A stretch of 64,000 nucleotides of DNA, taken from contig NZ_CP133782.1 of NCBI RefSeq assembly GCF_034351645.1, positions 1,679,001-1,743,000 on the forward strand. The letters are read 5' to 3'. Numbering within the stretch: position 1 is the stretch's first letter; the number at the start of each line of letters is the position of its first letter. Shown piece after piece: positions 2,883 to 24,754 of the stretch. The notes under the pieces are model-generated. The model ran no database searches and was not told the DNA's origin. It saw only the letters and a program-made list of their open reading frames with translations. The position numbers and the translations under genes are program-made. Origin of the DNA: Pseudomonas sp. DC1.2 (GTDB taxonomy: Bacteria; Pseudomonadota; Gammaproteobacteria; Pseudomonadales; Pseudomonadaceae).

Positions 2883-5800
2883 TTGAACTCATTGCCCCTT
2901 GTCAGCCTTGTCATTCCCGCCTTCAATCCGCGCTTTTTCAGTCGCGCATTGCTTTCTGCGGTCGGGCAGGGTTATGGCAATCTTGAAATCATTGTCTGCG
3001 ATGACAGTCGCGGTGACGAGATCAAGATCCTTGTTGATCAGGTGGTTGAACAGGGCGGTGTCGCCGTCCGCTATGTGCGTAATTCGAAAACACTCGGTCT
3101 GGTGGGTAACCTGCATGCCTGTCTTGAGCAGGCCCAAGGCGAATTCATCAAATTCCTTTGCGACGATGATCAACTGTTTGCTTCGTGTATCGAGCGCCAG
3201 GCTTACATATTGAGTGAGCGCGCCGAAGTCAATTTGGTGCTGGCCCAGCGTTTGTTCTGGGATGCCGATGATATGCAGCTGCCTTCGAGACTCGAGAATA
3301 CACCGCTGTCACCGTTGTGCGGGCTGTTCAAAGGTGATGACCTGCTGGCGATTTTTGAGCGTTTTCCGGCCAATATTCTCGGTGGTTTCAGCAACGCTCT
3401 GTTCCGTCGTGCGGACGTACAGGCCTTGCTTCCGGCTCTGACTCAGGTGGGCCATTGTTTTGTGGCGACCCTCGATTTTGCATTGTTCGTATGCTTGATG
3501 CGCCGTGGCAATACGGTCGTTCTCAATCATGTGCTGAGCGTCGAGCGGCTGTATCCGGAGCGTCTGAGCGGTCAGCAGGCGATGAAAGACGCTGTAGAGG
3601 CCGAGCGCGAGTGGTTGTTGCAGATGCTCAAGGCGCGCAGTGGAGAATCGGCGCCGGCGTCCGGCTGGGTTCGCTACCTACCGGTGACGCGGCTCGACGA
3701 GTCACCCAGGGTCTGGGAAGAGCTGCCGCTCATTCGAACGCTGGGGACCAAGCAAAGCACCCAGGAATGGCACGTAGGTATCAATAGCGTCAGCTTTTGC
3801 GAGTTGTACGCGCAGTGGCTTGCGTGTCGCACGCTGACTCAGCCGCAGCGATTGCTGTTGCCGGATACATTGGCGAGGTGGTCCTGGCAGCCGAAGATCG
3901 TGCCGATCATCATCGATGAGCAAGGCAGCCGTTCTACGCTGGACCTGACCCTGGAAAGTCTCGCCGGGCAGCTCTATGCGCCTGAGTTGATCTTGGTGTT
4001 ATCCAGCGCTTGTGAAGAGGCTGAGCTGGATGGACGGGTTTTTCGTCTACCGTTGCAGGGCGATTGGCAGCAGCAGATCAATGAACTGTTGCCACAACTG
4101 GACGGGGCTGACTGGTTCTACTTGCTGCGGGCCGGTGATCGTCTGGTGGAGCCGGCTTTACTGGTCATGGCGGAGCGCATAGCCGTCTCGGCAAGCGTGT
4201 CCTGTCTTTATAGCGATGAAGGTGGTTTGTTTCAGGGCGAATCGACGGAGCCGGCCTTCAAGCCCGACTTTAACCTGGACCTCTTGCGCAGTTATCCCTA
4301 TGTCGGCCGAGCGCTGGCATTCGAGCGTAAACGTTTCCTGGCACTGGGCGGTCTGGATTCGCTTTACGGCGAACTCGCGCCTCACGATGTGCTCTGGCGC
4401 ATGGTCGAGGAGGAGGGCGCCAATGTTGTGGGGCACATTGCGGAAATCTTGCTGGAGTCGGCGCAGAGCCTGTCGAAATGGCTCGCATCGCCGGAGGTGG
4501 TGGAAGGCAACGCGCCGTTAGTGCAAGGGCATCTTCTGCGCATGGGGATTGCCCATGAGATTCAGGCGGGCAGTGCGCCGCTGCTCAATCGTATCGACTA
4601 CCGGCATGATCGTCGTCCGCTGGTCTCGATCATCATCGTCAGCAAGGACCAAACAGTTGCTTTGCAACGTTGTGTCGAGAGCCTGCTGGAGAAAACCGCC
4701 TACAGCGAATATGAGCTGCTGCTAGTCGATCATGGCAGTGAGAGTGTCGAGGCCCGTACCTGGCTGGCCGGTATGGCGCAACTGGGCAGTGACCGGGTAC
4801 GCGTGCTGGAATATGCGCAGCAAGGCAATGCAGCGGCGGTGCGCAACTTCGCCATCGGACAGGCCCGTGGCGAGTATGTGTTGATGCTCAACCCTTACGC
4901 GGTGATTACGCAGGGAGACTGGCTGCACGAGATGCTCAATCATGGTCAGCGGCCTGAAGTCGGTGTGGTGGGTGCCAAACTGTTCAATCCTGACGGTCGT
5001 GTATTGCACGCCGGTCTGATTCTTGGCTTGCGCGGCCCTGCCGGGTTGCCGTTTTACGGCGAGCCCCTGCATTGCGCCGGCTATATGTTCCGGTTGCAGG
5101 TGGTTCAGGATTTAAGTGCCGTCGGCGCCGATTGCCTGATGGTTCGAAAAGCGGTTTTTGACAGTGTTGGTGGTCTGGATGAACAAGATCTTGCCAGCAC
5201 CCTGCATGAGGTCGATCTGTGCCTTAAGATCGGTCAAAACGGCTATCTGGTGGTTTGGACTCCTTATGCACAGCTGGCGCTCGGCGCGCAACCGGATGTC
5301 AGTGATCACGCCGATACGCAGGCTTTGCAGGGCAAAGAACAAGAGGTGTTCTACACGCGGTGGTTGCCGATCGTGGCGCGTGATCCGGCCTACAACACCA
5401 ACCTGGCGTTGCAGGCGCTCAGTGGTTCGAGTTTCAATCTGGAGCCGGGCTTACGCGCCGGTTGGAGTCCTTTTTCCAAGCCGCAGTTGCCGACAATTCT
5501 CGCATTGCCTGTCAACGCTTCCGCTATTGGACATTACCGGGTGACTCAGCCGCTGATTGAGCTGGAGGCTGCCGGCAGGGCGCAAGGGCGCATTCACTAC
5601 AACCTGCCGACCATGATTGAAGTCGAGCGTCAGTCGCCTGACGTGATCATTTTGCAGGGGCGTTATTCCGAAGGTCCGATCAATGAAATTCCAGGTCTGC
5701 AAAAGTATTCCAGTGCCCGTCGAATCTATGAACTGGATGATTTTGTGATCAACGTTCCCCATCGTAATGCGCATATCCGCAACATGCCGGGCAAGGACGA

Positions 5801-6479
5801 GATGGAAAAACTGGTTCGGCGTGCGATTGGCATGTGTGACCGGGTAGTGGTGTCTACTGAGCCCCTGGGTAACGCCTTGTCTGACATGCATCACGACATC
5901 CGCGTCGTACCGAACATGCTGGCCAAGCACCTCTGGAGCGATTTGCGCAGCCAGCGCCGAACCTCTAAAAAGCCTCGGGTCGGCTGGGGTGGCGGTACCA
6001 GTCACCACGGCGATCTGGCGGTCATTGCCGACGTGGTCCGCGAGCTGGCCAATGAAGTCGACTGGGTGTTCTTCGGCATGTGCCCGGATGATTTACGTCC
6101 GTATATGCATGAGTTTCATGGCGTCATCGACCTGGACATCTACCCGGCGAAGCTGGCCAGCCTGAATCTGGACCTGGCCCTTGCCCCACTGGAGTTCCAC
6201 ATCTTCAACGACTGCAAGAGCAACCTGCGGCTGCTGGAGTACGGTGCTTGTGGTTATCCGGTGATTTGCACTGATACCGAGGCGTATCGCGGGTACTTGC
6301 CATGCACCCGAGTCAAGACCAACTCCACTGATGAATGGTTGCAAGCTATTCGTATGCATTTGGCTGACGCCGATGCCAGCTATCGAATGGGTGACGAGCT
6401 ACGTGAGATCGTTCTGCGCGATTACATGTTGCGCGGCGATAACCTGCGTTATTGGGAGAACGGTTGGTTGGCGGATTGA
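2883..6479 (+). CDS. fgtA: Giant multidomain glycosyltransferase, FgtA-like
   Basis: About 1198 residues. Order of domains: an N-terminal GT2 domain opening with LPLVSLVIPAFN and carrying CDDDQ (DXD-like); a degenerate GT2-like part with YSDEGG and FKPDFNLDLL; a second full GT2 domain from RRPLVSIIIVSKD to about FNPDGRVLHAGLI; and a C-terminal GT4-type domain with a late LLEYGACGYPVICTD motif. Size, layout and place between flgL and the flagellin gene match the flagellar glycosyltransferase FgtA of P. aeruginosa, which adds the first sugars to FliC; function here is inferred. The start is uncertain: the frame is open back to a TTG at 2826, but the GT2 fold begins at the TTG at 2883, and neither has a clear ribosome site. 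Confidence 0.8.
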   Translation: MNSLPLVSLVIPAFNPRFFSRALLSAVGQGYGNLEIIVCDDSRGDEIKILVDQVVEQGGVAVRYVRNSKTLGLVGNLHACLEQAQGEFIKFLCDDDQLFASCIERQAYILSERAEVNLVLAQRLFWDADDMQLPSRLENTPLSPLCGLFKGDDLLAIFERFPANILGGFSNALFRRADVQALLPALTQVGHCFVATLDFALFVCLMRRGNTVVLNHVLSVERLYPERLSGQQAMKDAVEAEREWLLQMLKARSGESAPASGWVRYLPVTRLDESPRVWEELPLIRTLGTKQSTQEWHVGINSVSFCELYAQWLACRTLTQPQRLLLPDTLARWSWQPKIVPIIIDEQGSRSTLDLTLESLAGQLYAPELILVLSSACEEAELDGRVFRLPLQGDWQQQINELLPQLDGADWFYLLRAGDRLVEPALLVMAERIAVSASVSCLYSDEGGLFQGESTEPAFKPDFNLDLLRSYPYVGRALAFERKRFLALGGLDSLYGELAPHDVLWRMVEEEGANVVGHIAEILLESAQSLSKWLASPEVVEGNAPLVQGHLLRMGIAHEIQAGSAPLLNRIDYRHDRRPLVSIIIVSKDQTVALQRCVESLLEKTAYSEYELLLVDHGSESVEARTWLAGMAQLGSDRVRVLEYAQQGNAAAVRNFAIGQARGEYVLMLNPYAVITQGDWLHEMLNHGQRPEVGVVGAKLFNPDGRVLHAGLILGLRGPAGLPFYGEPLHCAGYMFRLQVVQDLSAVGADCLMVRKAVFDSVGGLDEQDLASTLHEVDLCLKIGQNGYLVVWTPYAQLALGAQPDVSDHADTQALQGKEQEVFYTRWLPIVARDPAYNTNLALQALSGSSFNLEPGLRAGWSPFSKPQLPTILALPVNASAIGHYRVTQPLIELEAAGRAQGRIHYNLPTMIEVERQSPDVIILQGRYSEGPINEIPGLQKYSSARRIYELDDFVINVPHRNAHIRNMPGKDEMEKLVRRAIGMCDRVVVSTEPLGNALSDMHHDIRVVPNMLAKHLWSDLRSQRRTSKKPRVGWGGGTSHHGDLAVIADVVRELANEVDWVFFGMCPDDLRPYMHEFHGVIDLDIYPAKLASLNLDLALAPLEFHIFNDCKSNLRLLEYGACGYPVICTDTEAYRGYLPCTRVKTNSTDEWLQAIRMHLADADASYRMGDELREIVLRDYMLRGDNLRYWENGWLAD

Positions 6480-6492
6480 TCGTTTCACGCTT

Positions 6493-6501: not shown

Positions 6502-6510
6502 TCCCTGAAC

Positions 6511-6537
6511 AGGCGACCTTGAGTCGCCTTTTTTTCG
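6511..6537 (+). terminator. Factor-independent terminator after the FgtA-like gene
   Basis: Stem AGGCGA / TCGCCT with a seven-base loop, followed by a run of eight T. Placed 32 bases after the glycosyltransferase stop, it separates that gene from the CDP-sugar operon. Confidence 0.85.
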
Positions 6538-6722: not shown

Positions 6723-7496
6723 ATGAAGGCAGTTATTTTGGCGGGTGGTCTGGGCACGCGAATCAGCGAAGAGTCGCACCTCAAGCCAAAGCCCATGATT
6801 GAAATTGGCGGCAAGCCAATTCTCTGGCACATCATGAAGCAGTACTCCGCCCACGGAATCCACGATTTCGTGATTTGTCTTGGCTATAAGGGTTATGCGA
6901 TCAAGGATTTTTTCGCCAACTACTTTCTGCACACCTCTGATGTCACCTTTGACATGTGTAACAACCGCATGGACGTGCATCAGAACTACAGCGAACCCTG
7001 GCGTGTCACGCTTATTGATACCGGTGAAGAGACCATGACCGGTGGGCGTTTGCGGCGCGCCAGCCGTTACGTTGAAGACGAAGAAGCCTTCTGTTTTACC
7101 TACGGTGACGGCGTGTCGGACTTGAACATCGGCGCATTGGTGGATTTTCATCTGGAACACGGCAAGTTGGCGACGGTGACTGCCGTTCAGCCGCCCGGTC
7201 GATACGGTGCGTTGAATCGCGATGGCGATCAGGTCCTGGGTTTCACCGAAAAGCCTCGTGGCGATGGTGGATGGATCAACGGAGGGTTCTTTGTCTTGTC
7301 ACCCAAAGTGTTGTCCTTGATCGAGGGTGACAGCACCTCCTGGGAGTCCGGACCGCTTGATGGGCTTGCCGAACGCGGTGAACTTATGGCCTTCCAGCAC
7401 GATGGCTTCTGGCAGCCGATGGACACCCTGCGCGATAAGAATCACCTCGAAGCCCTTTGGCAGAGCGGGGAGGCCCCATGGAAACAATGGGACTGA
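6723..7496 (+). CDS. rfbF: Glucose-1-phosphate cytidylyltransferase
   Basis: 257 residues. Forms CDP-glucose from CTP and glucose-1-phosphate, the entry step of all CDP-deoxysugars. The N-terminus [18 protein letters not shown] with [18 protein letters not shown] is the nucleotidyltransferase signature of the RfbF family; YGDGVSD is the metal-binding acidic motif and WINGGFFV a substrate-loop motif. The ATG at 6723 is chosen because the Rossmann fold begins there and a purine-rich ribosome site (GAGGGGAAGAGG) precedes it. Its end overlaps rfbG by 19 bases. First gene of a tightly packed operon. Near-universal length for the family. Confidence 0.93.
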
Positions 7497-8560
7497 GCAC
7501 CGCGTTCTGGCGCGGCAAACGGGTTCTGGTCACCGGCCATACCGGTTTCAAAGGCAGTTGGCTGACGTTGTGGTTGCAAAGCCTCGGCGCTGAAGTCAGC
7601 GGGTTTTCCCTTGACCCGTCCACTGATCCGAGCTTGTTCGAGCTGGCGCGTGTGCATGAAGGCATCAACGATCAGCGCGGTGACTTGCGTGACTTGGGCG
7701 CCTTGCTGGAGGTCATCGCCGACACCGAGCCGGAGATCGTTTTGCACCTGGCGGCGCAACCGCTGGTGCGTGAAGGTTATCGCGACCCGCTAGGCACCTA
7801 CTCCAGCAACGTCATGGGCACCCTCAACGTGTTGGAGGCCATCCGTCAGGTCGGTTGCGTGCGCGCCTGCGTGCTGGTGACCACCGACAAGGTCTACGCC
7901 AACAAGGAATGGCTGTGGCCGTACCGCGAGAACGAAGCCCTTGGCGGGCACGATCCTTACAGCAGCAGTAAGGCCTGCTGCGAGTTGCTTGCGCAATCCT
8001 ATGCGGCTTCATTCTTCTCGGCCGAACGCTACGACGAACATGGGCTGGCCCTGGCGACTGCGCGTGCCGGTAACGTGCTGGGCGGCGGAGACTTTGCCCC
8101 GGAACGGTTGATCCCGGACGTGCTCAAGGCGTGGTCGGCTGATGCGCCAGTGACCTTGCGCTGTCCACAGGCCGTGCGCCCCTGGCAGCATGCGTTGGAG
8201 CCGCTGGCCGGTTATCTGCAACTGGCTGCCGGCCTTTACGAGCAAGGCCCGGAATACGCCGGTGCGTGGAATTTCGGGCCGAGCGAGGCCGACATGTGCA
8301 GCGTCGGCGAAGTGGTCGCGCTGCTGGCTAGCCGCTGGCCGCAAGCGCCGGGATTGCTCATCGAACCGAGTGAACTGCATGAGGCCGGCCTGTTACGCCT
8401 GGACAGCAGTCGCGCACGTCAACTGTTGGCCTGGCAGCCACGCTGGTCGTTGCAACAGTGCCTGGCTCAGACCCTCGACTGGCACCTGGCGTGGCAAAAC
8501 GGCGATGACATGCGTGCCGTCACCCTTGGGCAGTTGAACCTGTACCGAGGCGCGCTGTGA
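7478..8560 (+). CDS. rfbG: CDP-glucose 4,6-dehydratase
   Basis: 360 residues. Converts CDP-glucose to CDP-4-keto-6-deoxyglucose. SDR fold: NAD-binding [14 protein letters not shown] near residues 15-30, [12 protein letters not shown] with the active-site Thr/Asp region, and the catalytic YSSSKAC tyrosine-lysine pair about 35 residues later. [10 protein letters not shown] is a further RfbG hallmark. The ATG at 7478 follows GGGAGG; a second ATG lies three codons on. The pairing with rfbF fixes the sugar nucleotide as CDP rather than dTDP or GDP. Confidence 0.93.
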
Positions 8561-9117
8561 GCGAATTTTTGCTGAAAGCGTTGCCGCTCAATGGCCTGTT
8601 CAGCGTGCAGCACAAACGCGCCGAAGACGATCGTGGGCATTTCGCGCGGCTGTTCTGCGAAGGCAGCCTGAGTGCTTTCGACCAGCCATTTCATATTCGT
8701 CAGATCAATCACTCTTGCACCCGCGAACGCGGGACGGTCCGTGGCTTGCATTACCAGAATGCCAGCGCCCCGGAAGCCAAATTGATTACCTGCCTGCGCG
8801 GTGAAGTCTGGGACGTGGCAGTAGACTTGCGCCCCGAGTCCGAAACTTTCCTGCACTGGCACGCCGAACACCTGCGGGCCGGCGACGGGCGCAGTCTGTT
8901 GATCCCGGCCGGGTTCGCCCATGGTTTCCAGACCCTGACCGACGATGCCGAGTTGCTCTACCTGCACAGCACCGATTACACCCCGGCGCATGAGGGCGGT
9001 TTGTCGGTGAACGAGCCACGGCTGGCCATTGCCTGGCCGTTGCCTGTCAATAATCTGTCGGCCCGGGACGCCAGTCATCCCTTGCTCGATGAACACTTCG
9101 CCGGAGTGCGTCTATGA
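8557..9117 (+). CDS. Nucleotide-sugar 3,5-epimerase-like protein (RmlC family)
   Basis: 186 residues, GTG start overlapping the rfbG stop by four bases. Cupin of the dTDP-4-dehydrorhamnose 3,5-epimerase family: RGHFARLFCE, the conserved TVRGLHYQ with the catalytic His, VWDVAVDLR, and IPAGFAHGFQTL. By position it should act on the CDP-4-keto-6-deoxy sugar and set configuration at C3 and/or C5 before or after C-methylation. Whether one or both carbons are epimerised cannot be told from sequence. Next gene overlaps by four bases. Confidence 0.85.
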   Translation: MSEFLLKALPLNGLFSVQHKRAEDDRGHFARLFCEGSLSAFDQPFHIRQINHSCTRERGTVRGLHYQNASAPEAKLITCLRGEVWDVAVDLRPESETFLHWHAEHLRAGDGRSLLIPAGFAHGFQTLTDDAELLYLHSTDYTPAHEGGLSVNEPRLAIAWPLPVNNLSARDASHPLLDEHFAGVRL

Positions 9118-10340
9118 ACTGTCGTGGTTGCGCTGCGCCGCTGGCCTTGCCACTGATCGACCTCGGTACTTCGCCGCCGTCCAACGCCTATGTCCGCGTC
9201 GATCAATTGGAACAGGCCGAGCAATGGGTGCCATTGAAGGTGGCGGTATGTCAGCAATGCTGGCTGGTGCAGACCGAGGACTACAGCAGCGCCGAGAGTC
9301 TGTTCGACGCCGAGTACGCCTATTTCAGCTCCTTCTCGAGCACCTGGCTGGCGCATGCCGAGCGTTATGTGGCCGAGATGGTCGAGCGCTTCGGCCTGAC
9401 GTCCGAAAGCCGCGTGGTGGAAATTGCTGCCAATGACGGTTACTTGTTGCAGTACGTGGCCGCGCGCAGCATTCCTTGCCTGGGCGTCGAACCGACCCGC
9501 AGCACTGCCCAGGCGGCGCGGGAAAAAGGCCTGGAGATTCGTGAACTGTTCTTTGGTCGAGAAACGGCATCGCAGTTGGTGGCTGAAGGCTGGTCTGCCG
9601 ACCTGATGGCCGCCAACAACGTGCTGGCCCACGTGCCGGACATCAATGATTTCCTCGGTGGTTTTGCAACCCTGCTCAAACCAACGGGCGCGGCGACCTT
9701 CGAGTTTCCGCAACTGCTGACGTTGATGGCTGGTCAGCAGTTCGACACGCTGTATCACGAGCACTACTCCTACCTGTCCCTGACCGCCGTGCAAACCTTG
9801 TGCGAGCGCAATGGTCTGGAAGTGTTCGACGTCACTCATTTGCCGACCCACGGCGGCTCGCTGCGCGTCTTCGTTCAGCGCACTGACGGCGTTCGCCGCG
9901 ACGTACAGCCCGCGGTCATGCAGCAGTTGCACGCAGAACTCGCTGCGGGTGTGAAAACCCCTGAGTACTACGCGACCCTGGCCCCGGCGGCTGAACGCAT
10001 CAAGCACGACTTGTTGCGCTTCCTGTTGCAGGCCAAGGCTGATGGCAAGCGTGTCGTGGGGTATGGCGCGGCGGCCAAGGGCAACACTTTGCTCAACTAT
10101 GCTGGCGTCAAACCGGACCTGCTGGCTTGGGTCGCCGATGCCAACCCACACAAACAGGGCAAGTACCTGCCGGGCAGCCGCATTCCAATTGTGTCGCCCG
10201 AACGCATTGCGATAGAGAAACCTGACTACGTGCTGGTGTTGCCGTGGAACCTGCTGGATGAGATCACCCAGGCCTTCACCGGTATTCGTGCATGGGACGG
10301 TCGTTTTGTGATCGCCATTCCTGAGTTGATTATTCGATGA
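9114..10340 (+). CDS. Nucleotide-sugar C-methyltransferase (NovU/TylCIII-type)
   Basis: 408 residues. Three-part layout of sugar C-methyltransferases: an N-terminal zinc-binding unit (CRGCAAPL and CQQCW), a SAM-binding domain (VVEIAANDGYLLQYV), and a C-terminal Rossmann-like domain (RVVGYGAAAKGNTLLNYAG). The DTLYHEHYSYLSL motif carries the histidine used as base in this family. These enzymes methylate C3 of a 4-keto-6-deoxysugar, giving a branched sugar. Placed directly after the epimerase with a four-base overlap, it predicts a branched CDP-sugar; an unmethylated product cannot be excluded from sequence alone. Confidence 0.85.
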   Translation: MNCRGCAAPLALPLIDLGTSPPSNAYVRVDQLEQAEQWVPLKVAVCQQCWLVQTEDYSSAESLFDAEYAYFSSFSSTWLAHAERYVAEMVERFGLTSESRVVEIAANDGYLLQYVAARSIPCLGVEPTRSTAQAAREKGLEIRELFFGRETASQLVAEGWSADLMAANNVLAHVPDINDFLGGFATLLKPTGAATFEFPQLLTLMAGQQFDTLYHEHYSYLSLTAVQTLCERNGLEVFDVTHLPTHGGSLRVFVQRTDGVRRDVQPAVMQQLHAELAAGVKTPEYYATLAPAAERIKHDLLRFLLQAKADGKRVVGYGAAAKGNTLLNYAGVKPDLLAWVADANPHKQGKYLPGSRIPIVSPERIAIEKPDYVLVLPWNLLDEITQAFTGIRAWDGRFVIAIPELIIR

Positions 10341-11458
10341 GCAGAATTCATTACACCAAACCCAGTGTCGGTGAACTGGAAGCGCGTTACGCCCTCGATG
10401 CTGTACAGAACGGCTGGGGTGAACGCTGCTACGAATACCTCACGCGTTTCGAAAAATCTTTCGCCGAGCACGTGGGCACGTCCTACGCGATCGCGACCTC
10501 CAGTTGCACTGGGGCGCTGCACATGGGGATGGCTGCGCTGGGTATCGGCGCCGGCGACGAGGTGATCCTCGCCGACACTAACTGGATCGCCTCCGCCGCG
10601 CCCATTACTTATCTCGGTGCGACCCCTGTGTTTGTTGACGTGCTGGCGGACAGCTGGTGCCTCGACCCGCATCAGGTTCGACGAGCAATCACGTCGCGGA
10701 CCAAAGCCATTCTCGCGGTACACATTTACGGCAACCTCTGTGACATGGACGAGTTGTTGGCCATCGGCCGCGAGTTTGGTTTACCGGTCATCGAAGATGC
10801 GGCCGAAGCGATTGGCTCGCAGTGGCGGGGCCATGCCGCTGGATCGCTGGGCACGTTCGGGGCATTTTCCTTCCACGGCACCAAGACGATGACTACGGGT
10901 GAGGGCGGTATTTTCGTCACCTCGGACAAAGCGTTGTATGAGCGGGTATTGACCCTGTCCAACCATGGTCGGGTGGCCGGCAGCAGCAAGCAGTTCTGGC
11001 CGGATTTCATTGGCTTCAAATACAAGATGAGCAACCTGCAAGCGGCCGTCGGCTGTGCCCAGGTTGAGCGGATAGAGACACTGATCGAGCGTAAGCGAGC
11101 GATCTTCGCCTACTACGCCCAAGCGTTGGCAGGCTTGCCGGGTGTGTCGATGAACCCTGAGCCCGAGCACGGGCGTAACGGCTATTGGATGCCGACCGTA
11201 GTGTTTGACCGCGAACTGGGGATCACGCGGGAGATCTTGATGGCCGCGTTCCAGGCCGCCGACATCGATGCGCGGGTGTTCTTTTGGCCGCTGTCTTCCT
11301 TGCCGATGTTCAGTGACGTCAAGGCCGACTCGCCAGTGGCGTATGCGCTGCCCGAGCGGGCGATCAATCTGCCGAGTTACCACGACATGACTGATGACGA
11401 TCAGCAACGTGTCATCGAAGTGCTGAGTGCCCTGTTGCACAAAAGGACGCAGCTATGA
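10337..11458 (+). CDS. DegT/DnrJ/EryC1 aminotransferase (sugar 4-aminotransferase)
   Basis: 373 residues. PLP enzyme of the DegT family; the active-site lysine is in FSFHGTKTMTTGEGG (Lys183), and VIEDAAEAIG supplies the Asp that binds the PLP ring. Closest in layout to perosamine/viosamine synthases, which aminate C4 of a 4-keto-6-deoxysugar with glutamate as donor. Coupled to its neighbours by four-base overlaps on both sides. It is a separate enzyme from PseC (Lys188 of that protein) encoded 6.5 kb on. The regiochemistry is inferred from the 4-keto substrate made upstream. Confidence 0.85.
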   Translation: MSRIHYTKPSVGELEARYALDAVQNGWGERCYEYLTRFEKSFAEHVGTSYAIATSSCTGALHMGMAALGIGAGDEVILADTNWIASAAPITYLGATPVFVDVLADSWCLDPHQVRRAITSRTKAILAVHIYGNLCDMDELLAIGREFGLPVIEDAAEAIGSQWRGHAAGSLGTFGAFSFHGTKTMTTGEGGIFVTSDKALYERVLTLSNHGRVAGSSKQFWPDFIGFKYKMSNLQAAVGCAQVERIETLIERKRAIFAYYAQALAGLPGVSMNPEPEHGRNGYWMPTVVFDRELGITREILMAAFQAADIDARVFFWPLSSLPMFSDVKADSPVAYALPERAINLPSYHDMTDDDQQRVIEVLSALLHKRTQL

Positions 11459-12120: not shown

Positions 12121-12150
12121 CCACCGCGGCTATTTTCTGGAGAGTGTGTG

Positions 12151-12879: not shown

Positions 12880-12930
12880 GCAACAACATTGTTGAGTTCA
12901 TTCGGCTACGGGCCGGTTGTGGGGAAATAT

Positions 12931-15855: not shown

Positions 15856-15885
15856 GCCTGGCTGACAGGTAAAAGGACTCACGGT

Positions 15886-16887: not shown

Positions 16888-18041
16888 TTCCCTACGGTCG
16901 GCAGAGTCTCGATCAGGCGGACATTGACGCCGTGGTCGCCGTGTTGCAGTCCGACTGGCTGACCCAGGGGCCGACCATCGAGCGTTTCGAGCAGGCCATG
17001 GCTGAACGTTGTCAGGCCGATTTCGCGGTCGCGGTGTGTAACGCCACGGCGGCATTGCACATTGCCTGCCTGGCAGCCGGACTCGGGCCGGGCGATCGCC
17101 TGTGGACCACGCCAAATACCTTTCTGGCCTCGGCCAACTGCGGTCGCTACTGTGGCGCCGACGTCGATTTTGTCGACATCGATCCGCTGACCTGGAACCT
17201 CGATGCCTATGCCCTGAAGGCCAAGCTGGAAGTTGCCGAGGACAACGGCACGCTACCCAAAGTGCTGGTGGCGGTGGCGTTTGCCGGACAGAGTTGCGAT
17301 ATGCGGATGATCGCCGAGTTGGCCGAACGCTATGGTTTCACGGTCATCGAGGATGCCTCCCATGCGGTCGGCGCGAGCTATGCCGGGCGTGCGGTGGGCT
17401 GTGGTGATTTTGCGGCGATGACGGTGTTCAGCTTTCACCCGGTGAAAATCATTACCAGTGCTGAGGGCGGCATGGTCCTGACCAATCGCCGTGACCTGGC
17501 CGAGCGCCTGCAACGCCTGCGCAGCCATGGCATGACCCGCGACCCGGAGCAGATGACCGAGTCCAGTCATGGGCCCTGGTACTACCAACAGGTTGAGCTG
17601 GGCTTCAATTACCGCATCACCGATCTGCAAGCGGCCCTCGGTTTGTCGCAACTGAACAAACTGGATGAGTTTGTTGCGCGTCGGCGTGAGCTGGCTGCGC
17701 GTTATGACCGATTGCTGGCGTATTTGCCGCTGACGCTGCCCAGCGCACAGCCTGAAGCTGAATCGGCGTGGCACCTGTACGTGGTGCGCTTGCAGCTCGA
17801 CCGGATCAATCGCAGTCATCGACAGGTGTTCGAAGGGTTGCGGTCCGCCGGGGTCGGGGTGAATCTGCACTATATTCCACTGCATTTGCAGCCTTACTAC
17901 CGAGACTTGGGCTTCGCCGAGGGCGACTTTGCCCAGGCCGAGCGCTACTACGCTGAGGCCATCAGCCTGCCGCTGTTTCCGTTGCTCAGCAATGAACAAC
18001 AGGATTACGTGGTCGAGCAACTGCAACGGCTGATTGAATAA
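16884..18041 (+). CDS. pseC: UDP-4-amino-4,6-dideoxy-N-acetyl-AltNAc transaminase
   Basis: 385 residues. DegT-family PLP aminotransferase, second step of pseudaminic acid synthesis. Opens IPYGRQSLDQADIDAVV, has VIEDASHAVGASY for PLP binding and FSFHPVKIITSAEGG with the Schiff-base Lys188; NYRITDLQAALG follows. This HPVK-IIT..EGG motif is typical of PseC and separates it from the perosamine-type enzyme in the CDP cluster. Start overlaps the pseB stop (ATGA). High confidence from context and motifs. Confidence 0.93.
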   Translation: MIPYGRQSLDQADIDAVVAVLQSDWLTQGPTIERFEQAMAERCQADFAVAVCNATAALHIACLAAGLGPGDRLWTTPNTFLASANCGRYCGADVDFVDIDPLTWNLDAYALKAKLEVAEDNGTLPKVLVAVAFAGQSCDMRMIAELAERYGFTVIEDASHAVGASYAGRAVGCGDFAAMTVFSFHPVKIITSAEGGMVLTNRRDLAERLQRLRSHGMTRDPEQMTESSHGPWYYQQVELGFNYRITDLQAALGLSQLNKLDEFVARRRELAARYDRLLAYLPLTLPSAQPEAESAWHLYVVRLQLDRINRSHRQVFEGLRSAGVGVNLHYIPLHLQPYYRDLGFAEGDFAQAERYYAEAISLPLFPLLSNEQQDYVVEQLQRLIE

Positions 18042-18073
18042 ACGCTGCTACAGGCGGCAGATGGGAATGAGCA

Positions 18074-18694
18074 ATGCGTGAACTGAGTGAGCAGGAAAAA
18101 TTCTGGCAGGGCGATTTCGGTAATCAGTACGTCGACCGTAACCTTGGGCAGCCGCTGGTGGCGGCCAACCTGGCGTTGTTTGCCAAGGCGCTGACGCGAG
18201 CAGGGCAGATTGACAGCTTGCTGGAACTGGGGACCAATGCCGGCAACAATTTGCAGGCACTGCGTCAACTATTGCCGCAGTGCGAATTGTATGGCGTAGA
18301 AATCAATAGCAGCGCACAGGCCCAGGCCCAGGCGCTGGGGATTGCCCAGGTCTGGCACGGTTCGCTGTTTGATTTTCCTTGTCTGCGAACCTTTGATTTG
18401 ACCCTGAGCAAGGGGGTGCTGATTCATCTGGCGCCGACGTTGTTGCCCGCCGCCTACGCGCAGCTTTATGCGTTGAGCCAGCGCTATATTCTGCTGGCCG
18501 AGTATTACAACCCGGCGCCGGTCGAGGTGTCGTATCGCGGTAACAACGGCAAGCTGTTCAAGCGCGATTTTGCCGGTGAAATGCTTGACCGCTATCCCGA
18601 CCTGCAACTGGTGGATTATGGTTTTGGTTATCACCGCGACCCGCAATTCCCGGTGGACGACATCACCTGGTTTCTTCTGGAAAAACGCCGTTGA
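18074..18694 (+). CDS. Pseudaminic acid biosynthesis-associated methylase
   Basis: 206 residues. SAM-dependent methyltransferase fold: LLELGTNAGNNLQALRQL is the glycine-rich motif I and LYGVEINSSA the acidic motif II. The N-terminus with FWQGDFGNQYVDRN and the end DDITWFLLEKR match the family found only inside Pse operons (TIGR03587 type). Probably methylates a Pse intermediate or the finished sugar, but no reaction is proven to my knowledge. 32 bases after pseC; overlaps pseF by four bases, so made in step with the pathway. Confidence 0.85.
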   Translation: MRELSEQEKFWQGDFGNQYVDRNLGQPLVAANLALFAKALTRAGQIDSLLELGTNAGNNLQALRQLLPQCELYGVEINSSAQAQAQALGIAQVWHGSLFDFPCLRTFDLTLSKGVLIHLAPTLLPAAYAQLYALSQRYILLAEYYNPAPVEVSYRGNNGKLFKRDFAGEMLDRYPDLQLVDYGFGYHRDPQFPVDDITWFLLEKRR

Positions 18695-19398
18695 ACAACG
18701 TTGCAATCATCCCGGCTCGCGGTGGCAGCAAACGCATACCGCGCAAAAACCTCAAACCGTTCCTCGGTGTGCCAATGATTGCGCGCTCGATTCAGAGCGC
18801 TCTCGACTCAGGGTTGTTCGCCCGCGTAGTGGTCAGTACCGACGACGACGAGATCGCCGAGCTGGCTCTAGCCTGTGGCGCACAGGTGCCATTCATGCGG
18901 CCGGCCAACCTGGCCGATGACTTCACAGGCACGGCGGCGGTGATTGGTCACGCGCTGCAAGAACTGCATCGCCAGGGCCTGAGTTTTGAGTACGTCTGCT
19001 GCGTCTACGCGACCGCGCCGCTGTTGCAAACGCGGTTTTTGCAACAAGGGCTGGACGTGTTGGCGCACCACCCGGACAAGTCCTTTGCATTTTCGGTGTG
19101 TGACTTCGGTTTTCCGGTGCAGCGTGCCTTGACCCTTGACGATCAGGGCGCCTTGACCGCGTTGTACCCACAGTTCCGGGACACGCGTTCCCAAGACCTG
19201 CCGGCGGCTTATCAGGACGCCGGACAATTTTACTGGGGCCGCAGCGCGGCTTGGTTGCGCGGTGAGGCGTTGTATTCGCCGCAAAGCCTGCCGGTGATCC
19301 TGCCACGCTATCTGGTGCAAGACATCGACACTGAGGAAGACTGGAAGCGCGCCGAATATTTGTTTGCCGCGTTGAAGGCCGGCGGTGAGTTGCAATGA
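18691..19398 (+). CDS. pseF: Pseudaminic acid cytidylyltransferase
   Basis: 235 residues, TTG start overlapping the previous stop by four bases. Activates pseudaminic acid with CTP to CMP-Pse, the sugar donor. Signature NVAIIPARGGSKRIPRKN (P-loop-like CTP site), VVVSTDDDEIAE, YATAPLL, and the D-D metal pair near QDIDTEEDW at the end. Length and motif set fit PseF. A relative, the CMP-legionaminate or CMP-sialate enzyme, is less likely because all neighbours are Pse-type. Confidence 0.92.
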   Translation: MNNVAIIPARGGSKRIPRKNLKPFLGVPMIARSIQSALDSGLFARVVVSTDDDEIAELALACGAQVPFMRPANLADDFTGTAAVIGHALQELHRQGLSFEYVCCVYATAPLLQTRFLQQGLDVLAHHPDKSFAFSVCDFGFPVQRALTLDDQGALTALYPQFRDTRSQDLPAAYQDAGQFYWGRSAAWLRGEALYSPQSLPVILPRYLVQDIDTEEDWKRAEYLFAALKAGGELQ

Positions 19399-20900
19399 GA
19401 GTGTTGATCCGCGCCGACGCCTCACCGACCCTCGGCAGCGGCCACATTGCCCGCTGCCTGACGCTGGCCAAGGTTTTGCAGCAGCAGGGCGCGCACGTGG
19501 CGTTTGCCTGTCGCCAGTTGCCGGGCCATCGGCTCGACAGCCTTGCTGGCGAAGGCTTTGAAACCTTCGTGCTGCCGGATCGCTATCCCGAAGAAGACCC
19601 GCAGCAAGCCATTGAAGCCATGTTGCCTTGGCAGGCAGACATTGCCGCCTTGGGTCAGGCGCTGGAAAATCAGCAGGCTTTCGACTGGATCATCGTCGAC
19701 CACTACGGACTCGATCATCACTGGCAGACTGCGGCTCGCTGCTGGGCGCCAAGGATTGCAGCGGTGGATGACCTGGCGACGCGAACCTACAGCGTCGATC
19801 TGCTACTCAACCAGAATTTGTCGGGCACGCCAGAGGCCTATGCCTCACTGCTAGCGCCACATTGTCGGCGCTTGCTGGGGCCGCGTTTTGCGCTGCTTCG
19901 GGATGAGTTCTGCTGCGCGGCGATTGAAATCAAGCCCCAGGCCAAGCGGGTGCTGGTGAATTTTGGCGGCTTTGATGCCGCGCGGCAGACTCATCACGCG
20001 ATGCTCGCATTGGCGGATTTTCCTGATCTGGAGGTCGACTTCGTTGCCGGTGCCAATAACCCGGCTTGGGAGGCAATGCAGGCGCTGGCGGCCCATCGAC
20101 CGAACTGGCGCTTACACGCTTTTGTCAGCGATTTTTATCGATTGATGACTGAGGCCGATGTCTTTGTCGGCGCCGGTGGCGGCACCAGTTGGGAGCGCGC
20201 GGCCATGGGGCTGCCGACAATCTGTATTGCGGTGTCGAATAACCAGCAAGCCAACGGCGAGGTCATGGCGACCTCGGGTGCGCATGTGTTTCTAGGCCCG
20301 CGCGAGCAGGTCAGCGTCGAGCAACTGCGTCAGGCCATTGGGTTTGTTGCGAGCAATCAGGGGCTGCGTCAGAGCCTGGCCGAACGCTCTCGGCAATGGG
20401 TCGATGGCCGTGGCGCGCAACGCGTAGCGGCGGCGCTGGCCGGCGCGGTGTTATCGGTTCGCAAGGCGAGCGATGAGGATGCGCGATTGTTGTTCGAGGG
20501 GCGCAATGCCGATTCGGTTCGGCGCTGGTCGCTGGACAGTCAGCTTATCGAGTGGCCCGCACATCAGGCTTGGCTGGCGGCGAGCTTGAGCAATGAGCAA
20601 CGTTTACTGTTGATCGCCGAGTCCAGTGATGGCCCGGTCGGCGCGCTGCGTTACGACCTGCACGGGGCCAGCGCTGAAGTCTCTATTTATCTGTTTGAAG
20701 GCCGTTTCGGTCTCGGCTGGGGCAAGGCGCTATTGGCTCGCGGCGAGGCCTTTGTGAGCGGCCACTGGCCGCTGCTGCAAACCATTACCGCTCAAGTATT
20801 GCCTGCCAACCAGCCGTCGCTGAGCTTGTTTCGCGAAGCCGGTTTCAACCAGAGTGCTTGCGCGTTCACGCGCGTACTGAAGGATCATCGCAATGACTAG
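19395..20900 (+). CDS. pseG: PseG-PseH fusion: UDP-sugar hydrolase plus N-acetyltransferase
   Basis: 501 residues where PseG alone has about 340. Residues 1-350 are PseG, a GT-B-like hydrolase that removes UDP from 2,4-diacetamido-trideoxyaltrose: RADASPTLGSGHIARC with the catalytic His17, and GAGGGTSWERAAMGLP. From residue ~352 (VLSVRKASDEDARLLF) to the end is a GNAT fold with the acetyl-CoA loop near FGLGWGKALL and LFREAGF, that is, PseH, which acetylates the C4 amine. No other pseH is present in the operon, so the fusion completes the pathway. PseH acts before PseG, so one polypeptide carries consecutive steps. Overlaps pseF and pseI. Confidence 0.92.
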   Translation: MRVLIRADASPTLGSGHIARCLTLAKVLQQQGAHVAFACRQLPGHRLDSLAGEGFETFVLPDRYPEEDPQQAIEAMLPWQADIAALGQALENQQAFDWIIVDHYGLDHHWQTAARCWAPRIAAVDDLATRTYSVDLLLNQNLSGTPEAYASLLAPHCRRLLGPRFALLRDEFCCAAIEIKPQAKRVLVNFGGFDAARQTHHAMLALADFPDLEVDFVAGANNPAWEAMQALAAHRPNWRLHAFVSDFYRLMTEADVFVGAGGGTSWERAAMGLPTICIAVSNNQQANGEVMATSGAHVFLGPREQVSVEQLRQAIGFVASNQGLRQSLAERSRQWVDGRGAQRVAAALAGAVLSVRKASDEDARLLFEGRNADSVRRWSLDSQLIEWPAHQAWLAASLSNEQRLLLIAESSDGPVGALRYDLHGASAEVSIYLFEGRFGLGWGKALLARGEAFVSGHWPLLQTITAQVLPANQPSLSLFREAGFNQSACAFTRVLKDHRND

Positions 20901-21945
20901 CTTCAAAATTGGCCGCCACACGATCGGTGCCGATGCGCCGCCGTTTATCATTGCCGAGATGAGCGGCAACCATAACCAGTCCCTGGACGTGGCGTTGCAA
21001 ATCGTCGAAGCCGCGGCCAAGGCCGGCGCTCATGCGTTGAAACTGCAAACCTACACCGCCGAGACCATGACGCTGGACCTCGATGAGGGCGAGTTTTTTA
21101 TCAAAGACCCCAATAGCCTGTGGGCAGGGTCGTCGCTGTATGCGCTGTATGAAAAGGCCCATACACCTTGGGAATGGCATGCGCCGATTTTTGCACGGGC
21201 CAAAGAGCTGGGCTTACTCGCGTTCTCAACGCCTTTTGATGACAGCGCCGTGGATTTCCTCGAAAGCCTGGACGTGCCTGCGTACAAGATCGCCAGTTTC
21301 GAGAACACCGATTTGCCGCTGATTCGTCGGGTCGCCGCCACCGGCAAACCGCTGATCATTTCCACCGGCATGGCCAGCGTCGCCGAGCTTGACGACACCG
21401 TGCGTGCCGCACGCGAGGCCGGTTGCAAGGATCTGGTCCTGCTTAAATGCACCAGCACGTACCCGGCGACCCCCGCTAACAGCAACGTGCGGACGATTCC
21501 TCACTTGCGGCAGTTATTTGGCTGTGAAGTTGGGTTGTCCGATCATTCCATGGGCGTCGGCGTGTCTGTCGCCGCGGTGGCGCTGGGCGCGACGGTGGTG
21601 GAAAAACATTTCACCCTCGACCGTGCCGCTGGAGGGGTGGACGCCAGTTTCTCCCTGGAGCCGGCAGAACTGGCCAGCTTGGTGATTGAAACCGAGCGCG
21701 CTTGGCAGGCAATGGGCCAAGTGCATTACGGCGTAACCGAGGCTGAGCGCAAGTCGCTGGTTTACCGCCGCTCGCTCTATGTCACTCTGGACATGGCCGC
21801 CGGTGAACCGTTCACGCTGGCCAATCTGCGGGCCATTCGTCCGGGGCTGGGTCTGGCGCCCAAACACGCTGAAAACCTTCTGGGCCGCCACGCTCGCCAT
21901 GCCATTAAACGCGGTACGCCGCTTGACTGGTCGTTGGTCGAATAA
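20893..21945 (+). CDS. pseI: Pseudaminic acid synthase
   Basis: 350 residues. Condenses the 6-deoxy-AltdiNAc with phosphoenolpyruvate to pseudaminic acid. NeuB-type TIM barrel: FIIAEMSGNHNQSLDVAL at residues ~18-35, LKLQTYTAETMTLD, STPFDDSAVDFL, KIASFE, GLSDHSMG, VEKHFTLDR. The C-terminal ~60 residues form the antifreeze-like SAF domain (YRRSLYVTLDMAAGE). Starts eight bases inside pseGH. Last gene of the Pse operon. Confidence 0.93.
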   Translation: MTSFKIGRHTIGADAPPFIIAEMSGNHNQSLDVALQIVEAAAKAGAHALKLQTYTAETMTLDLDEGEFFIKDPNSLWAGSSLYALYEKAHTPWEWHAPIFARAKELGLLAFSTPFDDSAVDFLESLDVPAYKIASFENTDLPLIRRVAATGKPLIISTGMASVAELDDTVRAAREAGCKDLVLLKCTSTYPATPANSNVRTIPHLRQLFGCEVGLSDHSMGVGVSVAAVALGATVVEKHFTLDRAAGGVDASFSLEPAELASLVIETERAWQAMGQVHYGVTEAERKSLVYRRSLYVTLDMAAGEPFTLANLRAIRPGLGLAPKHAENLLGRHARHAIKRGTPLDWSLVE

Positions 21946-22062: not shown

Positions 22063-22174
22063 CTTTACGCTTCCCGTCTTCGCCTGTTGCTGGCGAGTCA
22101 TAATCTCTGTTTGTCGGCGCCCCTCGATTCCTTGCGAGCGGTGGTATTGGGCTGTTTATTATTGGGAAGCCGTA

Positions 22175-23101
22175 ATGATTGGCATAAAAAGCATTGCGAG
22201 CTACGTTCCTGTAGCCGGCGTGGACAATTACGCGCAAGGTGCAAAGTTTGAAAAGGATGAAGACTTCATTCTGGGCAAGATCGGTTCAGCCTTCCTGCCG
22301 CGTAAAGACGCTGAGCAGGAAACCTCGGACCTGTGTGTCGAAGCCGTCAATGCGCTGTTCGCCAACAACCCAGGTCTGAAACGTGAAGCGATCGACGTGC
22401 TGATCGTTGTCACTCAAAACGGTGATGAAGAAGGTCTGCCACACACTGCCGCCATTGTTCAGGACAAGCTGGGCCTGCCGACCACTGTGGCGGCGTTCGA
22501 CATCTCCCTGGGTTGCTCTGGTTACGTCTACGGTATTTATGCGATCAAAGGTTTCATGGAGGCCACGGGGCTGAAAAACGGCCTGTTGGTGACGGCCGAT
22601 CCCTATTCCAAAATCGTCGATCCGGAAGACCGCAACACCACTATGTTGTTTGGCGATGCGGCTACCGCGACCTGGATGGGTGAAGACGCACCGTGGCAAC
22701 TGGGCAAGGCCAAGTTCGGCACTGACGGTTCCGGCGCGCCGCACCTCAAAGTTACCGATGGCGTGTTCTATATGAACGGTCGTCAAGTGTTCAACTTTGC
22801 GTTGCTCAAAGTCCCGGCGCACTTGCGTGAACTGCTGGATGAGTCGGGGCTGACGGCTGACGATGTCGATGCCTTTTGCATTCATCAGGGCAGTGCGGCG
22901 ATTGTTGACGCCGTGGCGCGACGCTTTGAAGGCGAACCAGAAAAATTCATCAAGGACATGGTCGAGACCGGCAACACAGTGTCGTCGAGCATTCCGTTGC
23001 TGCTGGAAAAACACGTCCTCGACTCGAGCTGGAAGCGCGTGGCGCTGAGCGGTTTTGGCGTGGGATTGTCTTGGGGCTCAGCGATCATCTATCGTCCTTG
23101 A
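22175..23101 (+). CDS. Ketoacyl-ACP synthase III-like protein
   Basis: 308 residues. FabH-type thiolase fold with the complete Cys-His-Asn triad: Cys114 in LGCSGYVYG, His237 in FCIHQGS, Asn267 in TGNTVSSSIP. GDAATATWM is the usual mid-protein motif. Its location between Pse genes and maf argues against housekeeping fatty-acid synthesis; similar synthases occur in Pseudomonas flagellin-glycan islands, where they are thought to supply short acyl chains (for example hydroxybutyryl) for amino sugars. The acceptor here is unknown. ATG preceded by GGGAAG. Followed by a strong bidirectional terminator. Confidence 0.85.
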   Translation: MIGIKSIASYVPVAGVDNYAQGAKFEKDEDFILGKIGSAFLPRKDAEQETSDLCVEAVNALFANNPGLKREAIDVLIVVTQNGDEEGLPHTAAIVQDKLGLPTTVAAFDISLGCSGYVYGIYAIKGFMEATGLKNGLLVTADPYSKIVDPEDRNTTMLFGDAATATWMGEDAPWQLGKAKFGTDGSGAPHLKVTDGVFYMNGRQVFNFALLKVPAHLRELLDESGLTADDVDAFCIHQGSAAIVDAVARRFEGEPEKFIKDMVETGNTVSSSIPLLLEKHVLDSSWKRVALSGFGVGLSWGSAIIYRP

Positions 23102-23133
23102 GCCGGGGGCTTTAAGTCAGCACAAGCCCATAC

Positions 23134-23175
23134 AAAAAATAGCGTTCAAGGGTTAACCTTGAACGCTATTTTTTT
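23134..23175 (+). terminator. Perfect 18-bp bidirectional terminator hairpin
   Basis: An 18-base arm starting AAAAAATAGCG and its exact complement flank a five-base loop (GTTAA), with six A on the left and seven T on the right, so it works in both directions. It ends 23 bases before the maf start codon, leaving no room for a promoter between them. Confidence 0.9.
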
Positions 23176-23198
23176 GTCCGTAGAAAGAGCGAGGCAGC

Positions 23199-24491
23199 AT
23201 GAGCGAGAGCTTTGAAGACAATGCTCAGGTGCTAGAACGGCGCTGGCCGGCACTGCGCGCGCGATTGATGCTCGAAGACAGTTCGTCGGTTCAGGCTGAA
23301 CTGTTGCAAGGGCTGGGTTCGACGCTGAGCGTAGGCGGTATTCAGCTCACCAGCCGCCATGATCGCGTTCGCGAAGCCCGAGTACAGGCCGCGAGTCTGC
23401 CCGCTGATCAGGCGCAGTTGCATGTCTACGGCACGGGCCTCGGGGATTTACCCATGGTCCTGCTGGAGCGTCCTGAGCTGAAGCGGCTGTATGTGCATAT
23501 TCTGAATGGGGCTCTGTTCGCGCTGGTGTTGCAGTTGCTCGACCAGCGGCAATGGCTTGAGGACTCTCGCGTCGAATTGCGCTATGCCGGTGATTTGCCA
23601 GACATCTGTACGCCCTTTTTTGCGCTGCCATCGGAGATGCTACTGGCGGACGATTTCAACGCCAAGATTCGAGATCGTCTGGTCAGCGAAGTGCATTTGA
23701 GTTTCAACAATCGCGAATTCGATCCGCAGTCGCCGCACATTCTGCGTCGCTTGCAGGACACTCTTGAAGTCTTGCTTGGCGATGATGATATTGCGCAACT
23801 GTTTGGTACTTGCCCCGGACAGGAAATCTACGTGATCGGCACCGGGCCCAGCCTTGAAGGGCATTTCGAGCAGTTGGCAGCGGTGCGAGGGCACGCGCAG
23901 CGGCCGCTGTTCATTTGTGTCGACACCGCCTATCGGCCGTTGCGCGAGCACGGGATCAAGCCTGACCTGGTGGTGAGCATCGATCAGCGCATCAGCTTTC
24001 GACATTTGCCTTCGGAGGAATCCGATGGCATCCCGCTGGTGTACTTTCCCATGAGCGATCCGCAGGTGCTGAAGGCCTGGAAAGGCAAACGCTACGGTGG
24101 CTACTCCGCCAGCCCGATCTACGCGGCGTTGCGCAGCCAGCATGCCAGGGCAGAACTGTACGCTGGCGGCAGCGTGATTCATCCCGCCGTGGACCTGGCG
24201 GTGAAGATGGGCGCCGAGCGTATTACCTTGTTCGGGGCCGACTTTGCCTTCCCTATGAACAAGACTCATGCCGGTTGGAACGACGGTGATTTGGGGCCAG
24301 CGGTGAGTCAGGCCAAGCATTGGGTGCGTGATGGGCACGGGCAGCAGGTCAGGACGCAGTTGAATTTTCGCAGTTACCTGTGTGATTTGGAGCGCTACAT
24401 TGCCAGGCATCCAGAGGTGCGTTTCTTTAACAGCAGTCGAGCGGGGGCAATGATTGCCGGCACCCAGTTCAATCGGGAGTTCGTGCAATGA
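23199..24491 (+). CDS. Maf-like (DUF115) motility accessory factor / flagellin glycosyltransferase
   Basis: 430 residues. The core domain starts at about residue 205 (GQEIYVIGTGPSLEGHFEQL), followed by PLFICVDTAYRPLREHGIKPDLVVSID, and ITLFGADFAFPMNKTHA, which are the DUF115/MptE-like motifs of Maf proteins. Maf enzymes transfer nonulosonic acids such as pseudaminic acid to Ser/Thr of flagellin in the cytoplasm, so the neighbourhood (pse operon upstream, fliC downstream) fits well. The N-terminal ~190 residues are a less conserved Maf flanking region. GAG-rich ribosome site before the ATG. Overlaps the next small gene by four bases. Confidence 0.85.
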   Translation: MSESFEDNAQVLERRWPALRARLMLEDSSSVQAELLQGLGSTLSVGGIQLTSRHDRVREARVQAASLPADQAQLHVYGTGLGDLPMVLLERPELKRLYVHILNGALFALVLQLLDQRQWLEDSRVELRYAGDLPDICTPFFALPSEMLLADDFNAKIRDRLVSEVHLSFNNREFDPQSPHILRRLQDTLEVLLGDDDIAQLFGTCPGQEIYVIGTGPSLEGHFEQLAAVRGHAQRPLFICVDTAYRPLREHGIKPDLVVSIDQRISFRHLPSEESDGIPLVYFPMSDPQVLKAWKGKRYGGYSASPIYAALRSQHARAELYAGGSVIHPAVDLAVKMGAERITLFGADFAFPMNKTHAGWNDGDLGPAVSQAKHWVRDGHGQQVRTQLNFRSYLCDLERYIARHPEVRFFNSSRAGAMIAGTQFNREFVQ

Positions 24492-24754
24492 GCGCGCGGG
24501 TGCAATGTGTGAACGGCTGCCGGCAGTGTGCCGTGCTGTTTCGTCTGGGCTGCGATGTAGAGGCGGCGCTGATCATGGTTGATGTGTTCGACGAGGCGCA
24601 GCGGCTGTTACTGATGGAACCTCAAGCTGTCCAGCATGCATGGGCCCAAGTGCTCACCCAGATGCTGGCCTGTCAGGAGCGTCAGGATTGGCTGGGACTT
24701 GCCGACTTCATGGAGTACGAGCTGATTGGTTTGTTGGAAGACGGGCAGGCGTGA
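24488..24754 (+). CDS. Small Cys-rich protein coupled to maf, function unknown
   Basis: 88 residues, ATG overlapping the maf stop by four bases, which argues that it is a real, coupled gene. Helical and acidic after residue 25 (VFDEAQRLL..., ACQERQDWLGLADFMEYELIGLL). Four cysteines lie in the first 22 residues (C7, C11, C14, C22), spaced C-X3-C-X2-C-X7-C, which could bind metal but this is unproven. I do not recognise a family. Its place directly after maf and before fliC suggests a helper in flagellin modification. Confidence 0.7.
   Translation: MSARVQCVNGCRQCAVLFRLGCDVEAALIMVDVFDEAQRLLLMEPQAVQHAWAQVLTQMLACQERQDWLGLADFMEYELIGLLEDGQA

Follow-up and report, generated by a model that had tools for sequence, protein, structure and literature searches.

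The 64,000-nucleotide stretch of the Pseudomonas sp. DC1.2 genome analysed here (the window; contig NZ_CP133782.1, positions 1,679,001 to 1,743,000 of the forward strand) carries, between the flagellar genes flgL and fliC, genes for a cytidine diphosphate (CDP)-linked sugar and for the cytidine monophosphate (CMP)-linked nonulosonate pseudaminic acid (Pse), together with two giant glycosyltransferases (GTA and GTB) and a predicted flagellin transferase of the Maf type. The CDP route of this island ends in an aminotransferase, which is the less common branch of that route in the genus, and the two endings of the route are mutually exclusive. The locus is probably a Pseudomonas-type island for flagellin glycosylation in which two cassettes are exchangeable, the best overall explanation that we can offer. 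A more specific reading, to which we give slightly less than an even chance, is that the flagellin carries a CDP-derived N-acyl 4-amino-3-C-methyl-4,6-dideoxy-O-methylhexose (kansosamine-like) as well as methylated Pse, and that the genus switches between amino and neutral sugars by exchanging an enzyme module along with the donor-binding domain of GTB. The composite island itself is widespread in the genus; the interest lies in the amino-branch variant and in a transferase domain whose sequence changes along with it.

The open reading frames (ORFs) of the flgL-fliC block were assigned by Pfam and NCBIfam family scans of the translated genes, with the following result.

Left of flgL, + strand: flgK, truncated by the window edge
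1198..2766, + strand: flgL, hook-filament junction protein, left border (Flagellin_N/C Pfam matches; the name FlgL is suggested by position and length)
2883..6479, + strand: GTA, large multidomain glycosyltransferase, 1198 aa, TTG start at 2883 (PF00535 in two stretches; C-terminal PF13524 below cut-off)
6723..7496, + strand: rfbF, glucose-1-phosphate cytidylyltransferase (TIGR02623, 463 bits against a cut-off of 300)
7478..8560, + strand: rfbG, CDP-glucose 4,6-dehydratase (TIGR02622, 476 bits against a cut-off of 278; TDK...YSSSK signature)
8557..9117, + strand: RmlC-like 3,5- or 5-epimerase (PF00908; TIGR01221 slightly below cut-off; top PDB matches are RmlC)
9114..10340, + strand: sugar 3-C-methyltransferase of the mycarose/TcaB9 type (PF08421, PF13489 and PF08484; PDB D-mycarose 3-C-methyltransferase, E 2e-67)
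10337..11458, + strand: DegT-family C-4 aminotransferase, perosamine-synthase-like, marker of the amino branch (PDB perosamine synthetase, E 5e-79)
11455..12120, + strand: NeuD/PglD-type N-acyltransferase, perosamine N-acetyltransferase-like (TIGR03570 barely above cut-off; PDB 4ea7, E 6e-22, with VioB next)
12148..12879, + strand: RMNT, O-methyltransferase resembling CmcI/rhamnosyl-O-methyltransferase (PF04989; nearest PDB entry CmcI)
12889..15855, + strand: GTB, 988-aa transferase (TIGR04440 at residues 30-234; GT2 at about 716-950)
15886..16887, + strand: pseB (TIGR03589 above cut-off)
16884..18041, + strand: pseC (TIGR03588 above cut-off)
18074..18694, + strand: pseudaminic-acid-associated methylase (TIGR03587 above cut-off)
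18691..19398, + strand: pseF, CMP-Pse synthetase (TIGR03584 above cut-off)
19395..20900, + strand: pseG with a fused C-terminal GNAT domain, the putative pseH function (TIGR03590 above cut-off; TIGR03585 38 bits, cut-off 93)
20893..21945, + strand: pseI, pseudaminic acid synthase (TIGR03586 above cut-off)
22175..23101, + strand: FabH-like beta-ketoacyl synthase III (PF08541/PF08545)
23199..24491, + strand: predicted Maf-type flagellin nonulosonate transferase, MptE-like domain (PF01973; NF050051 weak, below cut-off)
24488..24754, + strand: 88-aa ORF after maf (4-nt overlap with the maf stop; no Pfam match)
25000..25851, + strand: fliC, 283-aa flagellin, presumed acceptor (PF00669/PF00700)
Right of fliC, + strand: flaG, an ORF in the fliD position (26372-27799, named by position), fliS, a weak FliT match and fleQ

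These scans confirm the core of an earlier annotation of the window made from the letters alone (the original prediction), namely a CDP route, a Pse route, two giant transferases and Maf at one locus. Its boundaries, 2883 to 24754, do lie beside fliC, which adjoins the block; fliC itself falls outside them, starting 245 bp beyond 24754, the end of the 88-aa ORF. The flagellin had been called short, and its length is in fact ordinary, the best match spanning all 283 residues in 79 of 80 composite genomes. The genes from rfbF to pseI (6723-21945) overlap or are separated by gaps of at most 32 bp, and both routes therefore look like a single operon-like run at the flagellar locus. A terminator-like stem lies in the gap between GTA and rfbF (6511-6529), and comparable sites are not enriched (18 against 19.8 in shuffles).

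The CDP-glucose dehydratase family produces CDP-4-keto-6-deoxyglucose. Both rfbF and rfbG exceed the cut-offs of their CDP-specific families, and the island dehydratase and nucleotidyltransferase score far higher with CDP-type than with dTDP (deoxythymidine diphosphate)-type models. The most likely initiation codon of rfbG is the in-frame ATG at 7478, and its product matches the [ST]DK...Yx3K signature of CDP-glucose 4,6-dehydratases, as given in the consulted part of PMC8987622. The aminotransferase retains the lysine motif FSFHGTKTMTTGEGG. From this enzyme set we predict a CDP-linked 4-acylamino-3-C-methyl-4,6-dideoxyhexose that would receive its O-methyl group either ahead of transfer or afterwards, with a putative order of steps and a putative epimerisation. 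The nearest solved structures to the island enzymes are perosamine synthase, perosamine N-acetyltransferase and the mycarose/TcaB9 C-methyltransferases. Those enzymes act on guanosine diphosphate (GDP)- or dTDP-sugars, whereas the island dehydratase is of the CDP type. In the same genome (one 5.82 Mb contig), rfbG is the single CDP-glucose dehydratase above cut-off, there is one flagellin apart from FlgL, and rmlB and rmlD are located elsewhere, outside the island; a second dTDP-glucose 4,6-dehydratase (L003) lies far from it, at about 186 kb. We also considered a viosamine island, which starts from a dTDP-sugar; the CDP-type scores of both enzymes do not fit such a start. Genes for VioR, VioT or an acyl carrier protein were not found among the scanned ORFs, a listing that begins at 90 aa and so lies above, for example, a 69-aa acyl carrier protein.

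To place the island in its genus, we surveyed 398 Pseudomonas genomes with CDP-glucose 4,6-dehydratase and PseI profiles at cut-off, a census independent of GTB. The dehydratase was found in 180 genomes and PseI in 142; 117 had both, 63 the dehydratase only and 25 PseI only. The combination is thus common in Pseudomonas and not rare, contrary to the original prediction, which expected islands of this genus usually to have just one of the two routes. The two genes lie within 25 kb of each other (9.8-13.7 kb) in at least 85 genomes, counted over the 150 of the 180 in which they were located; of the 30 outside this count, 16 also have PseI. In all 80 composite genomes tested, of these 85, fliC lies 15.4-19.5 kb from the dehydratase. 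Homology to GTB led to 29 loci, a way of finding them that is biased toward islands like this one. Among the 27 from Pseudomonas (L033-L059; P. koreensis, P. fluorescens, P. rustica and others), 25 contain CDP genes, Pse genes, Maf and fliC and resemble the window in gene order, Pse route, Maf, GTA, GTB and rfbF-rfbG; L037 and L038 have no CDP cassette. In three of the 36 composite islands that we fetched (16 amino, 20 other), L082, L084 and L102, PseI shares just 53-54% identity with that of the window and the Pse slot is occupied by PseC-like and other genes, with a gene of the ATP-grasp type (PRK12767-like) in L082. They may hold a different nonulosonate set, and composite islands need not all make the same nonulosonate.

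What distinguishes the window is the content of the slot that separates the C-methyltransferase from RMNT, a point that the original prediction overlooked. In other composite islands this slot usually holds a ketoreductase (short-chain dehydrogenase/reductase) and, in most, a second methyltransferase, whereas the window has the aminotransferase and the NeuD-like acyltransferase instead. Across 80 composite genomes the ending was a reductase in 61, an aminotransferase in 18, neither in 1 and both in 0 (Fisher p 5e-17), a pattern that looks as it should for alternative ends of one 4-keto intermediate. The reductase of G231, one of the genus genomes, matches that of Pseudomonas sp. AKS31 (L034) at 100% identity, which fits Pseudomonas as the genus. 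At E 1e-100 the aminotransferase was found in 32 of the 398 genomes, with at least 80% identity in 25 of the 32 and near PseI in 22. RMNT is 88-96% identical in the 18 fetched amino-branch islands and 69-74% identical in reductive-branch islands. Close homologues of the NeuD-like protein, in the best 120 of 1747 matches, include proteins bearing the names P. moorei (94% identity), P. vancouverensis (88%), P. fluorescens (76%) and P. koreensis (73%). The genome of P. moorei CCUG 53114 (L038) lacks the CDP cassette and the 94% identical protein (P0001) bears the P. moorei name; the CDP slot of this species possibly varies between strains. In five composite islands (L033, L099, L106, L108 and L111) nothing matched the C-methyltransferase and the RmlC-like gene is more divergent (62-68%); their CDP cassette may represent a third form.

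We then compared gene trees with the branch of each locus. Of 58 eligible loci, the 35 with all genes were used (11 amino, 24 reductive; the 23 lacking a gene were left out), and changes between the amino and reductive labels were counted on each tree and set against shuffled labels (means 9.4-9.7, minima 5-7). Changes were numerous for fabH (9), pseI (8), rmlC (8), rfbG (7) and pseC (7) and few for RMNT (1) and for GTB residues 1-260 (2) and 261-500 (2), with 6 for GTB 501-988; when the set was enlarged to as many as 64 labelled GTB rows, the three parts of the protein gave 5, 5 and 8. The signal was mapped along GTB in 65-residue windows, using 57 rows reduced to 46 by removal of near-identical ones. 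In the group comparison of GTB, L109 (neither ending) was omitted, and L085 yielded no complete GTB ORF. Branch signal was confined to residues 1-325 (z 2.2-6.6), with peaks at 66-130 and 196-260, and was near nil or negative beyond; after subtraction of whole-protein identity, z was 5.7 and 3.3 at the two peaks. Fifty-four columns differ in frequency by more than 0.6 between the branches, 48 of them at or before residue 325. Residue 91 is I or V in 18/18 amino loci and M, L or F in 45/46 reductive loci, and residue 87 is G in 18/18 and 6/46, respectively.

An AlphaFold model of GTB (predicted local distance difference test score 88.5, predicted template modelling score 0.83, 38 sequences) contains alpha/beta domains at about 27-235, 480-675 and 716-935. 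We read all three as GT-A-like, the comparison with solved structures having covered the third; with three such domains in GTB alone, the three transferases of the original prediction are an undercount. Domain 1 contains a DDD motif at 112-114 and the TIGR04440 match, and residues 87 and 91 lie upstream of the DDD. Because residues 1-325 track the branch and domain 1 holds both of these features, we propose that domain 1 would be the part of GTB that transfers the CDP sugar.

Several observations weigh against this interpretation of GTB and of the cassettes as a whole. The gene rfbF, which should be chemically indifferent to the branch, shows only 1 label change; the C-methyltransferase (3), the C-terminus of GTA (5) and pseF (5) are intermediate; 6 of the 54 columns that set the branches apart in GTB fall at 328-446, past the N-terminal part; and the label shuffles ignore relatedness among the loci. 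Since rfbF tracks the branch without a chemical reason, linkage could mimic functional co-variation, and the N-terminus of GTB, which adjoins RMNT, might simply have hitchhiked on a recombination tract with it, with no bearing on donor specificity. We regard this as a real but less likely alternative: the signal peaks at 66-130 and 196-260, not at the 1-65 edge that faces RMNT, it fades or turns negative past 325, and the branch-tracking residues 87 and 91 sit in domain 1, ahead of its DDD motif. On the side of chemistry, the RmlC-like and CmcI-like enzymes are placed at the level of family rather than of specificity. The Pse route had been called complete, and this stands for PseB, PseC, PseF, PseG and PseI, which exceed their cut-offs by at least 125 bits each; PseH is represented by a weak GNAT match (38 bits, cut-off 93) fused to PseG. 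Finally, divergent amino cassettes make up 7 of the 32 aminotransferase matches (61-68% identity), and the two that we inspected (L090 and L091) both lie away from the flagellar locus, next to genes resembling clpA or rpsA. Further sugar genes lie near both, and a flippase-like gene near L091; similar chemistry may be used outside flagella there.

Such relatives in polysaccharide-like loci of other pseudomonads are what would be seen if the CDP sugar served lipopolysaccharide or another polysaccharide solely and its flagellar location were incidental. We consider this very improbable, because all 80 composite islands tested adjoin fliC, no polymerase, flippase or ligase turned up when the flgL-fliC genes were scanned for families, the neighbouring N-terminal part of GTB co-varies with the cassette, and the cassette also stands beside flagellin in distant bacteria. 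Amino cassettes next to flagellin without a Pse cassette were found in L088, L089 and two betaproteobacterial loci (L060 and L061, from metagenome-assembled genomes labelled Iodobacter and Janthinobacterium), the last two of which have neither Pse genes nor Maf. The island sugars probably decorate the flagellar filament, and what has to be weighed next is whether they do so on one chain or two. In a single mixed chain, Maf would place Pse on Ser/Thr and GTA and GTB would extend it with CDP-derived and other sugars. This arrangement has a precedent in Aeromonas piscicola AH-3, where, according to the part of PMC7874193 consulted, a Pse derivative is the linking sugar extended by Fgi-1; both sugar routes also share one operon-like run, and GTB residues 326-390, 651-715 and 716-780 weakly track Pse status once whole-protein relatedness is removed (z 2.7-3.7; 6 Pse-minus or variant loci). 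However, GTA and GTB are retained where Pse and Maf are missing (L089, L117 and L119), and GTA, GTB and Maf where the CDP cassette is (L037, L038, L128 and L131), so that neither half needs the other, and a mixed chain seems to us somewhat doubtful. As the two halves occur independently, we lean to two separately built glycans, Maf-attached Pse and a chain of the Fgt type, perhaps on rhamnose, at roughly even confidence.

The preferred reading, an island with two exchangeable cassettes, leads to the following mechanism. In slot 1, the interval from GTA to GTB, glucose-1-phosphate would be converted to the CDP-linked 4-acylamino-3-C-methyl-4,6-dideoxyhexose, which the CmcI-like enzyme would O-methylate to a sugar resembling kansosamine or N-acyl-viosamine. 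Slot 2 would supply methylated CMP-pseudaminic acid, which Maf would transfer to Ser/Thr of the flagellin, while GTA and GTB would assemble the other glycan, with transfer of the CDP-derived sugar falling to the N-terminal domain of GTB. Substrate order, the chemical product and the rhamnose base are likewise predicted. The putative role of Maf agrees with its distribution: an MptE-like PF01973 protein stands beside flagellin and co-occurs with the nonulosonate route, being present in 29/29 fliC-reaching loci with Pse and in 1/7 without it (n = 36 loci). In the single case, L088 (genome G262), Maf adjoins fliC at about 1 Mb and the one PseI found is at 4.79 Mb; this Maf may be fed from another locus. 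The 88-aa ORF (24488-24754) occurs in 29/30 loci with maf and 0/6 without it and is a candidate Maf partner.

GTA has 24 homologues at 54-84% identity in related loci. In one locus (L046:1960-4398), an 812-aa ORF with RTX calcium-binding repeats lies between GTA and rfbF.

Flagellin glycans influence motility and plant recognition. The two interchangeable sugar slots of this genus-wide island, with a sugar-tracking transferase domain, provide a natural experiment for reading the donor specificity of flagellin glycosyltransferases from sequence; if our reading is confirmed, a CDP-linked C-methyl amino sugar would join the known flagellin glycans. By title and opening of the abstract, open-access PMC articles matching flagellin and CDP-glucose included nothing on flagellin glycans, and among the matches listed none reported a two-sugar Pseudomonas island or a CDP-linked C-methyl amino sugar on flagellin; subscription journals may already contain reports of composite islands. 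Neither pseudaminic nor viosamine appears as a word in the main text of one review (PMC8036289).

The large glycosyltransferase genes of the island lie between flgL and fliC, as in Pseudomonas flagellin glycosylation islands, and the position of GTA seems to correspond to that of the P. syringae fgt genes. According to the consulted portions of the sources, the flagellin glycans of P. syringae and P. aeruginosa have a rhamnose base (PMC3927599, PMC3958885), and those reported for Pseudomonas build on rhamnose and may also carry modified viosamine, a phosphate-linked N,N-dimethylthreonine or other sugars (PMC3927599, PMC3958885, PMC11833859). The group II islands of Aeromonas (A. piscicola AH-3) resemble the window in combining a Pse route, Maf and extra sugar and transferase genes near flagellin; in contrast, their transferases are different and the consulted part of the source (PMC7874193) mentions no CDP-glucose route. 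P. syringae pv. tabaci 6605 (fgt1, fgt2, vioA-vioT) is alike in having transferase genes upstream of fliC and in arriving, by way of an aminotransferase, an acyltransferase and a methyltransferase, at a final N-acylated, O-methylated 4-amino-4,6-dideoxyhexose (PMC3927599, PMC3958885, in the parts consulted). Its sugar, as described there, is a dTDP-linked viosamine that comes from a viosamine island, caps rhamnose and bears no C-methyl group, whereas the window has a CDP-linked, C-methylated route inside the flgL-fliC block and, in addition, pseudaminic acid and Maf.

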